Assembly (NCBI GenBank): GCA_030536655.1
Contig: JAUNPN010000002.1
Span: forward strand, 1-63,650
Direction: 5' to 3'
DNA: 63,650 bases
Source of the DNA: a bacterium
Lineage (GTDB): Bacteria; Bacillota; Clostridia; UBA1381
Positions 23,011-29,891 of this stretch are shown here, piece by piece. The position numbers and the translations under genes were made by a program. Within the stretch, counting starts at the first letter, position 1. Every line of letters starts with the position of its first letter. The notes beneath the pieces are model-generated. The model saw only the letters and a list, made by a program, of their open reading frames with translations, did no database searches and was not told where the DNA came from.

Positions 23011-23262
23011 TTAAGAAATATCGGAATCAAACAGCAGGTTAATATCTACGTTAAGCAATTTGGAAATAACATATATTTCTTTATCGGTAGCAAGGCGGAG
23101 CTGTCCTTCTAATTTGGAGTAGCTTGTCGGATTCATGTCTATGCCGGAGGCTTGTATCTGAGCAATGAAATCTTTTTGCTTTATGCCAAGTGATTTTCTT
23201 ATTTTTTCGATGTTTTGTCCGACCATGTTTCGCTTTCCTATTTCAGTTGTTCTTGTTTTCAT
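23011..23262 (-). CDS. XRE-family helix-turn-helix regulator
   Basis: The 83-residue protein is a single HTH_XRE domain: NIEKIRKSLGIKQKDFIAQI, then NPTSYSKLEGQLRLATDKEI and ISKLLNVDINLLFD. AAGGAAGG lies 6 bases before the first ATG, so I keep the long start. Divergent promoters in the large palindrome at 23315-23359 suggest autoregulation. It is the closest regulator to the DGR, reading away from it, and could control the short transcripts between them. Confidence 0.85.
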   Translation of the reverse strand: MKTRTTEIGKRNMVGQNIEKIRKSLGIKQKDFIAQIQASGIDMNPTSYSKLEGQLRLATDKEIYVISKLLNVDINLLFDSDIS

Positions 23263-23307: not shown

Positions 23308-23359
23308 TTGACAAAATTCCGTAAAAGAATTATAATGTAATTAATTCTATTACGGAATT
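23308..23359 (+). promoter_or_regulatory. consensus promoter overlapped by a palindromic operator
   Basis: TTGACA (23308-23313), 17-base spacer, TATAAT (23331-23336). A palindrome with 10-bp perfect arms AATTCCGTAA (23315-23324) and TTACGGAATT (23350-23359), and inner AGAATTA/TAATTCT arms, spans the promoter. This is a typical repressor site for the adjacent XRE protein. The rightward transcript has no protein gene for over 450 bases. Confidence 0.7.
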
Positions 23360-23404: not shown

Positions 23405-23433
23405 TTTACATTTCCGTTGGAATGTGGTATACT
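23405..23433 (+). promoter_or_regulatory. promoter of the structured RNA
   Basis: TTTACA (23405-23410), 17-base spacer and TATACT (23428-23433). The predicted start falls at the first base of a long closing stem. Confidence 0.6.
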
Positions 23434-23439
23434 ATAAGT

Positions 23440-23598
23440 GCTACACAATTATTAATAATCTCAGAATTCACGGAGTTTACGTTTGTTAAAAGACGTAGGC
23501 TTTGCTGTCATACTCCGTGAATGAGAATGAATTGTGTAGCAACAATTGCAAGCTGCGTTTTTATTGCGTAGCTGTGCAATGCGGCTGCGCATTTTTTA
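23440..23598 (+). ncRNA. highly structured candidate RNA upstream of the DGR
   Basis: From the predicted start the RNA folds into nested stems: GCTACACAATT (23440-23450) with AATTGTGTAGC (23530-23540), CTCA with TGAG, TTCACGGAGT (23467-23476) with ACTCCGTGAA (23512-23521), and an inner TACGT/ACGTA hairpin. A second domain (AGCTGCG/CGTAGCT, about 23550-23572) and a short terminator (AATGCG, GCTG loop, CGCATT, T6) follow. No coding frame exists. It matches no RNA class I know. Its link to the DGR is only positional. Confidence 0.6.
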
Positions 23599-23717
23599 TG
23601 CAAAGGTGTGGTTGGCATTAATAAGCGCCTTTTATAAAAGATAATAAATGAATATTATACTTTTTTGATAGTAAATATGTCAAAAATGGCTTAAAACGTG
23701 TCAATTCTGCAAAAGTG

Positions 23718-23746
23718 TTGACAAATTAGCAATAAATAGGTATAAT
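23718..23746 (+). promoter_or_regulatory. promoter of the DGR operon
   Basis: A perfect TTGACA (23718-23723), 17-base spacer and perfect TATAAT (23741-23746). It should drive avd, the template repeat and the reverse transcriptase, and possibly the target gene. Confidence 0.75.
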
Positions 23747-23794: not shown

Positions 23795-24298
23795 ATGAGA
23801 AATGATTTAAATGTAATAAAAAAATCAAAAGACTTATCGGGTATGATTTTCGAAATAACAGAAAGGTCTCCGAAAAAATTTAGATTTACTCTTGTATCTA
23901 AAATGCAGAATTTGTCTCTTGAAGTTATAAGTGAGTTATACATGGCAAATGATACTTTTGTTGATATGAAGATAATATCTGATATGAATAAAACAATAGA
24001 CTTTACAAAAAATATTAAATCTTTTAAAAGTGAGGAAGAAAGGATATATTACAGAAATAAAATATTTGAATTAAAAATGACAAGAGCTGTAAAAACAGAA
24101 GAAAGAGTATCAAGAAGATTGGAACATAGTTATGCGGCTCTTACAAAAATTAAGGAATTAGACTGGCTTATTACATTGTCAGCGCAAATGCAATGTATAA
24201 CAACAAAGCAGCAAGAGCGGCTGGCTATGCTTGTTTATGAGGTTAGAAGCCTTATAGGCGGTTTTATAAAGAGTGATAAGCGCAGATTTAATTATTAG
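23795..24298 (+). CDS. avd: DGR accessory protein (Avd-like four-helix bundle)
   Basis: The 167-residue, helix-rich basic protein has the four-helix-bundle pattern of DGR accessory proteins (segments NLSLEVISELYMAND, EERIYYRNKIFELKMTRAVK, ALTKIKELDWLITLSAQMQC, QQERLAMLVYEVRSLIGGF). Avd forms a pentamer that binds the reverse transcriptase and template RNA. The gene ends 12 bases before the template repeat, the usual place. Its base composition is clearly more AT-rich than neighbouring core genes. Identification rests on fold pattern plus context, which together are strong. Confidence 0.85.
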   Translation: MRNDLNVIKKSKDLSGMIFEITERSPKKFRFTLVSKMQNLSLEVISELYMANDTFVDMKIISDMNKTIDFTKNIKSFKSEEERIYYRNKIFELKMTRAVKTEERVSRRLEHSYAALTKIKELDWLITLSAQMQCITTKQQERLAMLVYEVRSLIGGFIKSDKRRFNY

Positions 24299-24310
24299 GG
24301 ATAGGGTTAT

Positions 24311-24423
24311 GGCTCCGTTCTCCGAATTCCAACAACAATAGTAACAATGCCCGTGTTGTCAACTCCGGCGGCAATGTTAACAACAATAATGCAAACAACA
24401 ATAACGTTGGTGTTCGTCCCGCT
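24311..24423 (+). repeat. DGR template repeat (TR)
   Basis: This 113-base segment matches the variable repeat at 26488-26600 with ten mismatches, every one at an adenine of this copy (A to G five times, A to T four times, A to C once). It holds 34 adenines, mostly as AAC/AAT Asn codons if read in the target frame. The last 18 bases (GTTGGTGTTCGTCCCGCT) match exactly and correspond to the initiation-of-mutagenic-homing end. The first differing non-adenine base lies immediately after it (C at 24424, T at 26601). Confidence 0.96.
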
Positions 24424-24477
24424 CTCTTTTTTAGTGAGATATTGTATTTAAGTAAATACATTCAGTACAAAGAGAGG

Positions 24478-24520
24478 AAAGGAATCCTATTCCTGTCAGG
24501 TGCAGGAGAATTCCATTAGT
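24478..24520 (+). ncRNA. hairpin in the template RNA spacer
   Basis: GGAAT and ATTCC close an inner stem TCCTG/CAGGA (around loop TCAGGTG) about 60-95 bases after the template repeat. In studied DGRs the RNA directly 3' of the template is bound by the reverse transcriptase and Avd and primes cDNA synthesis, so this fold is a plausible part of the template RNA. The role is inference. Confidence 0.45.
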
Positions 24521-24639
24521 TTTTCTGTGTCTGATAAACATACGATGCCGGAAAATATATTGTGTAAGTAGATGTTTTGCATTGAACACAAAATATATAA
24601 TCAGATTATCATATATAAGAAAACGGCAGGTGATATATA

Positions 24640-25715: not shown

Positions 25716-28700
25716 ATGAAAATGAAGAAAAAACTAATGAGCATACTGATAACGATGTCAATGCTTGTGACATTTCTGCCGGTAATATCGGTCGGTGCGT
25801 CTGCTGATATTAATATCGGTGAATACCTGCAAATGGGTACATATTACGGCGAACCGATATTATGGCGGTGCGTGGATATTGACGAAAACGGTCCGCTTAT
25901 GCTGAGCGATAAGATTATCAGTATCAAGCCGTTTGACGCTGCGGGGGATAACACAAGCGGCTCTCATGGCAGGGGATATGGTGATGGTTCTTATCGTAAA
26001 AGTTGGGGTTCAAATTATTGGGCAGATTCAAATATGCGCTGCTGGCTCAATTCCGACGCGTCCGCCGGGAATGTGAACTGGACGTGCGGCAATCCTCCGA
26101 CAGAGGATAAGGTATATTATGGATATAATGAATATGCAGATGAAGCGGGATTTTTGAGTAATTTTTCTCTGGGGGAAAGAAATGCGATAAAGCCGGTTAC
26201 GCAGAAGTCGCTTTTGGATGGTTATGAGCATGATTCAAATACTAGAAACGAAAATTATCATAGATATGATTCATATATAGAAGATGTAATGCAGAATTAC
26301 GATACTGCTTATTCAGAGCAGGTAACGGATTCTGTTTTTTTATTGGATGTAAAGCAGGCGCACAGAGTATACAGTAACGGAAATATTCTCGGAGAGGATT
26401 ATTATATAGGTGAGCCGACTGCGCAGGCTGTGGAAAAATCGGAATATAAGAGCTCATCATTGGGTATTGGAAATAAATGGTATTACTGGCTCCGTTCTCC
26501 GAGTTCCAGCAACAATAGTAGCTATGCCCGTGTTGTCAACTCCGGCGGCTATGTTAACAACAGTAGTGCCTACTACAATAACGTTGGTGTTCGTCCCGCT
26601 TTCTATTTAAATCAGTTATCTGCGCGCTTCACCTCCGGCAACGGCACGCTTGCGGCTCCGTATACCGTTGAGGGCAGCGGCAGCTATATCCCCGAGGTTA
26701 CGCCTGCACCTACACCGGAACCCACACCCACACCTACGCCTACGCCAACCATAAAGCCATATTTATTTGAAGTTGAAAAGTACCGCGCTAACGAGGTTAT
26801 GACGGGTTTATCCGGAAAAACGCTTTTCTCAATGGAAAATACTTATTTTGAGCAAACTCCGGGCAAGGTGTTGGTTGAAGCAGGTAAGAAAAATGGGTTA
26901 GATAAGTTAACTGAATTCTGGCGTGGTATGAATGATGAGGTAGGCGCGGTAAATGATATATCAAAAATTGCAGACCTTGCCTTTGAAGAAAAGGATATGT
27001 ATGAAGCGATTATTTGGGCTATATTTGAGTCGGGAGCGGATTTTAAACTGATAAGCAATATAGATTCGACAATAGCTGATAATGGTAAAAAAGTATATGA
27101 TTTCGTATCCGGGCAGATGAAATCAATGTATAATCTGAGTGTTGCGGATAAAGGAATGTATAACGCTCTTTCGGATAAACAGAAGCAGGAATGGAAAAAG
27201 CTTGTTACCGATTCATTTGAGTCGGAATATTCTTCATTAAGCAAGAGTATAGATATAGCGGATAAGATGGACTTATTCTTTGACGTAGCAAAGGATATAG
27301 AAGATCTTATAAACAGATGCGCGGCGTACTATGAATTGTCGTCAATGCAGGATTCGTTGAAACAGGTATTAAAGGAAATGTATCAGCAGTGTCCGTCTGA
27401 TGAAATTGCTATGAAGGCTGCTCTGCTTAATTGCGTAACTGTTATGAATTCAAATGAAGCAGCTGTTTCGGCAGAGATAGCGGCGTCTGTTGCAGGCACT
27501 ACAGGTAAGCGTTTTGGAATGATAGGCATGTCGGCGATGTGGTCAAGTGTGATGACAGGGGTCAAAAATGCTCACCCGGCTGTGGCAGTGTTTATGATGG
27601 CATATAAAAGCGGAACGTTTGTAAGCAATGCATTGTTTAACACTGATGCAATTGAAGAAGCATATCATAAGCTTGATGCTGTAATAAAAGTAGAGAATGT
27701 CGCACGCAGTGCATATTACAAGCTTAAAAAGCAATACATCAATGATGAGACAGAAACAAATGCGGCACATTATAACAGCGCTATTGATATTATGTTTAAT
27801 GCCAAAGATTATGACTGTGATACATCAATATCCTTTATAGATTCAGTAAGCAGTTCTGCGGCAGGAGCAGTAATCTCTTTATTGGGAGATAAAACAGCGG
27901 AAGAGAGAAAAAAATCAGTGAAGTCTATTCAGGATTCATCATATTCGATGTATGAGAGTATTCTTACAAGTTGGGTGTATCAGCTGGAAGAAGATGATAA
28001 GCAAACATATGAACAATATAAGTATGTTTTAGAGGAATCTGAAAAACGTATAAATAAGCGTTATCATATAGCGTGTCCTGTAGACGTATATGTATATGAT
28101 AAAATCGGACAAGAGGTTGCTTCTGTAGTAAACAACAAAACCTCGGTAAATGACAATTCAGATATCGTTATAACAGCATATAACGATGAAAAATTTGTTT
28201 ATCTTGATGATGACAAATATAGTCTGGAGTATAAAGCTACAGGCAACGGTACTATGGATATTACAATAGATGAATATAACGAAAAAGGAAAGACTGAAAG
28301 AACTGTAGGTTTTGATGATTTGTTAATTAGCAGAGGAGATGTATACAAATCGGAGGACAGCGGGGAGTATACGCTGACTTTGGACGGCAGCACAGTTGAG
28401 CCGGATTATGACACTGCGAAAAATAAAGCCGATGCAGTAAAAAAGCTGCTCGAAACAGACAGTGATATATCCACGGAAAAAATCACGAATGAATCAAATA
28501 ATGGTAAAATTGATCAAAACGATGATAATGTTCATCAAAATGATGATACAACGTCATTGAATCAATATCAAAAAGCAGCGATAAATTATGTTACGGAAAA
28601 CGCAATAATGACTGGTTACGATGACGGAACAATCAAACCATATAACAGCATAACGCGAGCAGAGTTTGCTGCTATGATGTGCCGACGCTTCGGATTTACG

Positions 28701-29891
28701 ACAAGCGAAAAATCCCTGTTTGATGATGTTCAGGATACTCATTGGGCTTCCTCATACATTCGTGCGTGTACTGATAAAGGAGCGATTAATGGAATAGGTG
28801 ATAATAAATTCAATCCGGACGGAATGGTTACATTTGAACAAGCAGTAAAAATTATAACAGTTCTCTGTGGCTATGAAAAGCAGGTCAGCATATATGAAAT
28901 GGGCGGATACCCGGATGGATATGTTTATGCGGCTGAGGAATATCATTTAACAGATGATATGACCGTTACTGTAAACGGACAAAATCTACCGAGAATTGAT
29001 GTTGCAATGCTCATATATAATTGCAGAAACAAACCGGAGGAAATATTAGGTGAAAACATTATAAAAAAATATGACTATATCGGCTGGTTTAATTATAATC
29101 ATCATCAGTTTGCTGAAATGGAGAAAGATGAAAAATGGGGAGTCATTGACTCCAAAGGGAACGAAGTGATAAGTCCTAAATATGATTATGTCGACATTCG
29201 CGGTGATGGAGAATATATCATAGTGAACAACGGAAAGAAAAGCGCACTCGTTGACGTGAACGGCAATATTGTGCTCGATTTTGACTATAGTATAATAGAC
29301 TTTTGTGATAACAATAAATATTTGACGGTTTGCTCAGCAGGAACTGGGAAAGACAGAACATGGGCATTAATAGATTATGAAGGCAGAGAAATAATTCCGG
29401 TTGGCAAGTATACAGAAATGAATTATTGCAGCGACAATTATATTGTTGTAGAATACGATGATGAATACGGTGTTATTGATATTAATGAAAATCAAGTTGT
29501 GCCATTTGATTTCAATTATATATTTCCGTTTTATGAGCAGAGAATGCTTCATGTAAGTGATGATGACGGAATGTATGGTATTGCAGATCTTAAGGGAAAT
29601 ATAATTATTGATACAGAATATGATGACATAGAAGGAGGTCGAGTATTGCCTGTATTTGCTCAAAAAAATGACAAATGGGGTAAGGTAGACAGAAATAATG
29701 AAATTGTAGTAGGTTTCAATTACGATTATGACCACGTTTATTCATATATTGATGGAGCTGGAAAATACTCCATCGCAGAAAAAAACGATGTTTTTTGTAT
29801 TATTGACAGTAACTTAGAAATGCTGACAGGGTATGACTTTGATGACATTGAGGATGCGGTCGATTATATACTTAAGAATCGTAATATGTAA
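25716..29891 (+). CDS. DGR target: secreted DUF6273-like, SLH and WG-repeat protein
   Basis: The 1391-residue protein has a signal peptide (1-30, MKMKKKLMSILITMSMLVTF), a DUF6273-like C-type-lectin-related domain (about 31-305, GEYLQMGTYYGEPILWRCVD) ending in the variable repeat (258-295, YYWLRSP through GVRPAFYLN), a Pro/Thr linker (about 328-349), a largely helical region (350-900), SLH modules (about 948-1075, with DDGTIKPYNSITRAEFAAMM) that anchor to the cell wall, and WG repeats (about 1137-1385, KWGVIDSKGNEVISPKYDY). GAGAAAGGAC precedes the ATG. The variable repeat is far from the C-terminus, unlike most DGR targets. Ligand unknown. Confidence 0.93.
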   Translation: MKMKKKLMSILITMSMLVTFLPVISVGASADINIGEYLQMGTYYGEPILWRCVDIDENGPLMLSDKIISIKPFDAAGDNTSGSHGRGYGDGSYRKSWGSNYWADSNMRCWLNSDASAGNVNWTCGNPPTEDKVYYGYNEYADEAGFLSNFSLGERNAIKPVTQKSLLDGYEHDSNTRNENYHRYDSYIEDVMQNYDTAYSEQVTDSVFLLDVKQAHRVYSNGNILGEDYYIGEPTAQAVEKSEYKSSSLGIGNKWYYWLRSPSSSNNSSYARVVNSGGYVNNSSAYYNNVGVRPAFYLNQLSARFTSGNGTLAAPYTVEGSGSYIPEVTPAPTPEPTPTPTPTPTIKPYLFEVEKYRANEVMTGLSGKTLFSMENTYFEQTPGKVLVEAGKKNGLDKLTEFWRGMNDEVGAVNDISKIADLAFEEKDMYEAIIWAIFESGADFKLISNIDSTIADNGKKVYDFVSGQMKSMYNLSVADKGMYNALSDKQKQEWKKLVTDSFESEYSSLSKSIDIADKMDLFFDVAKDIEDLINRCAAYYELSSMQDSLKQVLKEMYQQCPSDEIAMKAALLNCVTVMNSNEAAVSAEIAASVAGTTGKRFGMIGMSAMWSSVMTGVKNAHPAVAVFMMAYKSGTFVSNALFNTDAIEEAYHKLDAVIKVENVARSAYYKLKKQYINDETETNAAHYNSAIDIMFNAKDYDCDTSISFIDSVSSSAAGAVISLLGDKTAEERKKSVKSIQDSSYSMYESILTSWVYQLEEDDKQTYEQYKYVLEESEKRINKRYHIACPVDVYVYDKIGQEVASVVNNKTSVNDNSDIVITAYNDEKFVYLDDDKYSLEYKATGNGTMDITIDEYNEKGKTERTVGFDDLLISRGDVYKSEDSGEYTLTLDGSTVEPDYDTAKNKADAVKKLLETDSDISTEKITNESNNGKIDQNDDNVHQNDDTTSLNQYQKAAINYVTENAIMTGYDDGTIKPYNSITRAEFAAMMCRRFGFTTSEKSLFDDVQDTHWASSYIRACTDKGAINGIGDNKFNPDGMVTFEQAVKIITVLCGYEKQVSIYEMGGYPDGYVYAAEEYHLTDDMTVTVNGQNLPRIDVAMLIYNCRNKPEEILGENIIKKYDYIGWFNYNHHQFAEMEKDEKWGVIDSKGNEVISPKYDYVDIRGDGEYIIVNNGKKSALVDVNGNIVLDFDYSIIDFCDNNKYLTVCSAGTGKDRTWALIDYEGREIIPVGKYTEMNYCSDNYIVVEYDDEYGVIDINENQVVPFDFNYIFPFYEQRMLHVSDDDGMYGIADLKGNIIIDTEYDDIEGGRVLPVFAQKNDKWGKVDRNNEIVVGFNYDYDHVYSYIDGAGKYSIAEKNDVFCIIDSNLEMLTGYDFDDIEDAVDYILKNRNM
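26488..26600 (+). repeat. DGR variable repeat (VR)
   Basis: This copy of the template repeat lies in the target gene. Relative to the template, Asn codons became Ser at five places and Tyr at four, and one GCA became GCC (silent). Bases that are not adenine in the template are unchanged over all 113 positions. The encoded segment is RSPSSSNNSSYARVVNSGGY followed by VNNSSAYYNNVGVRPA. The substitutions fall in one exposed-loop-like region of the DUF6273-like domain. Confidence 0.96.

Follow-up and report, generated by a model that had tools for sequence, protein, structure and literature searches.

The RNA encoded at positions 23440-23598 (+) of the 63,650-nt stretch of clostridial DNA analysed here (the window) is a member of a previously undescribed family, probably of leader RNAs that act in cis by transcription attenuation. 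The family is absent from Rfam 15 and is filed as a candidate new family of transcription-attenuating leaders, and as an orphan riboswitch candidate.

The fold energy of the RNA in the window is -63.4 kcal/mol, against -38.0 +/- 3.5 kcal/mol for dinucleotide shuffles (z = -7.3), and none of 200 shuffles folded as well. A preliminary description of this DNA had presented it as a strongly folded, promoter-driven RNA starting on the first base of an 11-bp closing stem, and these points are confirmed. The promoter (23405-23433, +) has a -35 box TTTACA, a 17-nt spacer and a -10 box TATACT with an upstream TG; its predicted start lies at about 23440, and the spacing of the -10 box agrees throughout the family. 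The closing stem, P1 (23440-23450 with 23530-23540), delimits a putative sensor domain (23440-23540, +). Within it lie P2 (23466-23522, +; 23466-23476 with 23512-23522), which was described previously as a 10-bp stem but has 11 bp, and the P3 hairpin (23477-23498, +; 23477-23483 with 23492-23498), whose strands and A-rich loop form the most conserved sequence of the family. A possible helix P4 (23508-23530, +; 23508-23511 with 23527-23530) would cross P2 as an H-type pseudoknot and is regarded as tentative. The preliminary description missed a long-range pseudoknot (23499-23553, +) between 23499-23505 (GCUUUGC) and 23548-23553 (GCAAGC). It placed a second domain and then a terminator downstream of the closing stem; both are present, but they constitute an antiterminator/terminator pair with the common strand 23567-23573. 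The antiterminator (23551-23573, +) pairs 23551-23557 (AGCUGCG) with 23567-23573 (CGUAGCU) around a U-rich loop, and the intrinsic terminator (23565-23597, +) pairs 23565-23575 with 23581-23591, followed by U6 at 23592-23597. For this copy the computed energy of the 3' domain is -21.7 kcal/mol in the antiterminator form and -18.9 kcal/mol in the terminator form, the former being stabler by 2.8 kcal/mol.

Upstream, a second promoter (23308-23336), matching the consensus at 12 of 12 positions, points towards the RNA and would yield a second, longer transcript through it. An 18-nt inverted repeat, AATTCCGTAAAAGAATTA/TAATTCTATTACGGAATT (17/18), overlaps this promoter, the two together spanning 23308-23359, and probably serves as operator for the divergent HTH/XRE gene at 23011-23262.

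BLASTN searches with the window region retrieved further copies in the same genome and in its relatives. The best matches begin at about the -10 box and reach the U-tract of the terminator, with 81% identity to another contig of the same genome (G000:C89) and 76% to one of a relative (G026:C42). A covariance model built from 13 copies (R1) and one built from 121 copies (R2) identified the identical four copies in the genome of origin, within which copies are 79-81% identical. R1 matched 78 of the 95 genomes of the order (25/27 genera), with up to 24 copies per genome, and 95 of the 391 genomes of the class (56/222 genera). Among 348 genomes drawn from across the phylum it matched the genome of origin only, the class members listed there being ones without the RNA, and outside the class none of the genomes sampled from the phylum carries an R1 match. 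A pattern based on the P3 core retrieved 13 named contigs, all from metagenome-assembled genomes of gut Clostridia/Oscillospiraceae and all confirmed by R1, and had zero matches in 2.9 million viral contigs. At the gathering threshold no Rfam 15 family covers the window copy or 20 divergent homologues, which agrees with the earlier remark that the RNA fits no known class; permissive searches (E up to 0.5 for the homologues and up to 10 for the window) gave only weak matches far below the cut-offs. One variant (L023, 1501-1571 and upstream) keeps P1 and the antiterminator/terminator, while its inner domain appears different; it is possibly an alternative sensor on a common P1/terminator platform.

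A covariation test, proposed in the preliminary description, was passed, with compensatory changes in the stems. It used an alignment of 113 distinct sequences (A2) and a model of 45 pairs that comprised P1, P2, P3, the terminator, the pseudoknot and P4; neither the pseudoknot nor the antiterminator had played a part in building the alignment. In total, 90.8% of the cells in the model are paired, compared with 72.5% when partners are shuffled, and double changes occur in 42 of the 45 pairs. The model reaches a covariation score of 0.572; with shuffled partners the score is 0.224, and with slid partners it is at most 0.135. A phylogeny-preserving null gives significance at E=0 for P1, P2 and one terminator pair. 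P1 is 98.6% paired in the 113 sequences, with changes on both sides in 10 of 10 pairs; the core pairs of P2 are 94.9% paired and all show compensatory changes; P3 (95.4% paired) is compensated in 6 of 6 pairs and the terminator (99.2%) in 8 of 9. The antiterminator has its own covariation, with 88.8% pairing and changes on both sides in 6 of 7 pairs. The pseudoknot is 77.7% paired; it surpasses all shuffles in double-change cells and in covariation score, but not in the number of pair types.

The long-range helices were further evaluated by a swap test, in which the partner strand of each sequence is compared with the partner strands of other sequences. The pseudoknot gave z values of -13.8, -10.9 and -8.3 with 107, 72 and 40 sequences (three redundancy levels), with controls near zero or positive, and the antiterminator reached -15. 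P4 (65.6-78% paired) gave z values of -6.8 to -6.0; we regard it as only suggestive because two unplanned comparisons reach -5.6/-2.8 and -5.1/-3.5. An early terminator made of the 3' strand of P1 and the 5' strand of the antiterminator gave a weak signal, z falling from -5.6 to -2.8, and is not claimed. The antiterminator and the terminator share a whole strand, and the 3' strand of the pseudoknot overlaps the antiterminator by three positions. As predicted from the aligned sequences, this sharing of strands gives the RNA the layout of a transcriptional switch.

The start of the RNA is locked to P1. In 152 of 156 copies (26% at random positions) P1 is preceded, at a distance of 3-12 nt from its first base, by a -10 box; the distance is exactly 6 nt in 106 copies and 7 nt in 24, and 116 additionally have a -35-like hexamer. 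Where copies stand in tandem, 14 of the 16 downstream ones have their own -10 box in register with P1, most of them also with a -35-like hexamer. Each unit thus consists of promoter, RNA and terminator. It is unusual for a leader RNA to have its start fixed by the promoter in this way and to occur as self-contained units in tandem. At one locus (L112, G032:C59) three head-to-tail cassettes and a fourth, inverted one lie within about 1.5 kb, the inverted cassette preceding an XRE-type regulator gene.

We then consider the genes behind the RNA. Of 157 copies, 97 have an open reading frame with a Shine-Dalgarno sequence that begins no more than 80 nt behind the RNA (13.5% at random), and 54 are followed by a start resembling a signal peptide (1.75% at random), called by a simple pattern and not by a trained predictor. 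Among 100 downstream proteins, Pfam matches include LRR_5 (BspA repeats, 23), Cu_amine_oxidN1 (7), CHAP (4), SLH (3), HTH_3 (3) and DUF6273 (2). AbrB/SpoVT-like regulators and recurrent small proteins, named from their sequences by eye, are also found downstream. One recurrent protein of about 80 amino acids with no assigned function (..DEIADTTAIKALSEIQKVI..DFDAVEEIVCIFEKY..) follows the RNA immediately in several families (L106, L122, L124, L198, L206 and L208). About 40% of the copies are without an open reading frame with a clear Shine-Dalgarno sequence within 80 nt, some have no co-directional gene behind them, and some (L024, L031) face a convergent HTH gene. The position in a 5'-UTR that is looked for in a riboswitch is found family-wide (97/157) and not for the window copy, where no gene begins directly behind the terminator. 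As a description of the RNA, a leader of the genes downstream, most of them for secreted proteins, fits better than a stand-alone non-coding RNA.

These data also bear on the reading that every copy is a complete gene for a trans-acting small RNA of about 158 nt, with its own promoter and terminator, whose neighbours are either bystanders or targets reached through base pairing or a protein partner. The promoter locked to P1, the terminator that is always present, the separate promoters of the tandem copies and the copies without a co-directional gene would all suit such an RNA. We nevertheless consider it unlikely: ribosome-binding sites with open reading frames, and genes for secreted proteins, are strongly enriched close behind the U-tract, and a covarying antiterminator is hard to explain if the RNA always ends there.

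In the attenuation mechanism that we propose, RNA polymerase would initiate at the first base of P1. A sensor would be formed by the 5' domain (P1, P2, P3 and possibly P4). The GCUUUG strand leaving P3 would pair with the CAAAGC just 3' of P1 to form the pseudoknot. Because the antiterminator begins within the 3' strand of the pseudoknot, a pseudoknot held in place by a folded or bound sensor would hinder the antiterminator; the terminator would form and transcription would stop after about 158 nt. Release of the pseudoknot would allow the antiterminator to form, with read-through into the adjacent gene, usually one for a secreted or cell-surface protein. Sequence and covariation together show the helices, their mutual exclusion, the fixed geometry of promoter and P1, and the close proximity of ribosome-binding sites and of genes for secreted proteins; the response of the switch to a ligand or factor, and the direction of switching, we infer. 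Since the computed terminator form is on average 5 kcal/mol stabler than the antiterminator form in the family, switching would need to be kinetic or to be assisted by a factor. Further observations speak against attenuation: no pathway common to the downstream genes points to a particular ligand, tandem copies that each have a promoter and a terminator would equally suit stand-alone small RNAs, and the gaps noted above, at about 40% of the copies and behind the terminator in the window, count on the same side. The preliminary description had seen in the position of the RNA an invitation to a regulatory role, and such a role is likely.

The leader might instead be read by a protein or an antisense RNA and not by a small molecule, in the manner of pT181-like antisense attenuation or of a LoaP-type antiterminator. 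Antisense attenuators of the pT181/pIP501 type and LoaP leaders share with the present family a leader with a switchable intrinsic terminator, and this architecture would fit either. In the window, moreover, a minus-strand promoter just behind the RNA (23654-23683), with 12 of 12 consensus positions, points leftwards and would transcribe the RNA in antisense. Unlike in the pT181/pIP501 systems, however, no antisense promoter is conserved in the family: reverse promoters occur inside the RNA in 46 of 157 copies against 26 in shuffled sequences, and downstream of it in 38 against 24. Unlike for LoaP processive antitermination leaders, none of the 95 genomes of the order has a LoaP protein above the NF033641 cut-off. 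On this evidence, which covers antisense promoters and LoaP, reading by a protein or an antisense RNA appears improbable.

A mobile repeat spread by transposition, MITE-like, with P1 as its terminal inverted repeats and the fold as a by-product, would agree with the multiple copies, their tandem and inverted arrangements and the one copy in the genome of origin that lies beside a relaxase-like gene. Covariation largely refutes it: the copies of that genome have diverged to 79-81% identity with compensatory changes in every helix, and transposition would not maintain the conserved regulatory geometry. We therefore give this explanation very little credence.

The RNA in the window is followed by a DGR, in the order avd, TR/RT-14 RNA, RT and a secreted DUF6273-SLH-WG protein. 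The DGR operon has a separate consensus promoter (TTGACA-17-TATAAT; 23718-23746, +) downstream of the RNA terminator. The next gene, avd (23795-24298, +), for the DGR accessory protein, is bAvd-like with an E value of 3.6e-9, just under the Pfam cut-off. The template repeat lies at 24300-24440, and Rfam RF02921 (RT-14) matches 24422-24598, outside the leader RNA. The target, a secreted surface protein with DUF6273, SLH and WG repeats (25716-29891, +), contains the VR at 26487-26608 with 90% identity to the template repeat. A second VR-like copy (84% identity), on another contig of the same genome (G000:C180:30625-30742), is a possible remote target of this DGR. That the RNA is a component of the DGR, whether as template RNA or as a processing or control element of the retroelement, is suggested by its location, which is 120 nt before the DGR promoter and 200 nt before avd, and is contradicted to the point of being virtually untenable by its distribution (78 of 95 genomes of the order, against 3 of 95 for an avd homologue), by the other two avd loci and the second VR copy, which have no RNA alongside, and by the DGR having its own promoter and RT-14 RNA. 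The phage-related role that the position had invited in the preliminary description, and a special tie to the DGR, fall with the same counts and with the zero matches in viral contigs, and the link to the DGR looks incidental.

Homologues of the DGR target are found elsewhere directly behind the RNA. In one relative (G066) the RNA precedes, by 38-40 nt, DUF6273 genes whose products are 47-49% identical to the target in the window. Because relatives carry the RNA directly before such homologues, the DGR cassette has probably ended up between leader and gene; the RNA in the window would then be the original leader of the surface-protein gene, as judged from these sequence comparisons. Separated from its probable original target by a cassette with its own promoter, the window copy may contribute no more than read-through into the DGR operon, or may act as an orphan leader. 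In two relatives (L211 and L212) a tyrosine-recombinase-like gene lies near the avd homologue, which suggests a mobile DGR cassette.

Among described systems, the nearest that we found is the SLH motif, a riboswitch candidate from Thermovirga lienii with 80 examples in Synergistaceae, Clostridia and Negativicutes, ~60% of them before SLH genes (Stav et al. 2019, PMC6429828). Both are candidate cis-regulatory RNAs before surface-protein (SLH) genes and both occur, the SLH motif partly, in Clostridia. Unlike the SLH motif, the leader RNA is found in one class only, in hundreds of copies and mainly before BspA-repeat targets; the comparison covers the described range and targets (PMC6429828). The open papers that we searched contain no description of the leader RNA, the human-microbiome catalogue (PMC8040213) not having been compared motif by motif.

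Like terminator riboswitches that have pseudoknots, among them c-di-GMP classes I and II, the leader has a sensor followed by an antiterminator and a terminator with a common strand, and it occurs in several copies per genome, also in tandem, before genes for surface or secreted proteins. Unlike them, it has no Rfam riboswitch match, its start is locked to P1, and nearly every tandem copy has its own promoter. c-di-GMP is unlikely as the ligand because eight RNA-bearing genomes that are at least 90% complete (G078, G033, G079, G080, G026, G002, G042 and G050) encode no GGDEF domain detectable at E<=1e-5. A c-di-GMP riboswitch (GEMM-I/II) is rejected on the same ground and for want of an Rfam match.

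The marks of a riboswitch that the family does carry are a conserved structured domain with compensatory changes and, coupled to it, a mutually exclusive antiterminator and terminator. We offer as a tentative proposal, less secure than attenuation itself, that the family is a new candidate riboswitch class that senses a signal and governs adhesin-like and surface proteins of uncultured gut Clostridia as a genome-wide regulon, carried in a portable, tandem-stackable cassette of promoter, sensor and terminator. With over a hundred sequences of a putative orphan signal-sensing RNA at hand, ligand screens are directly feasible, and the promoter-locked start and the self-contained tandem cassettes make the question of action in cis or in trans easy to test. 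If the proposal is true, the large and poorly studied secreted BspA, SLH and CuAO proteins of gut Clostridia would be under a common switch.
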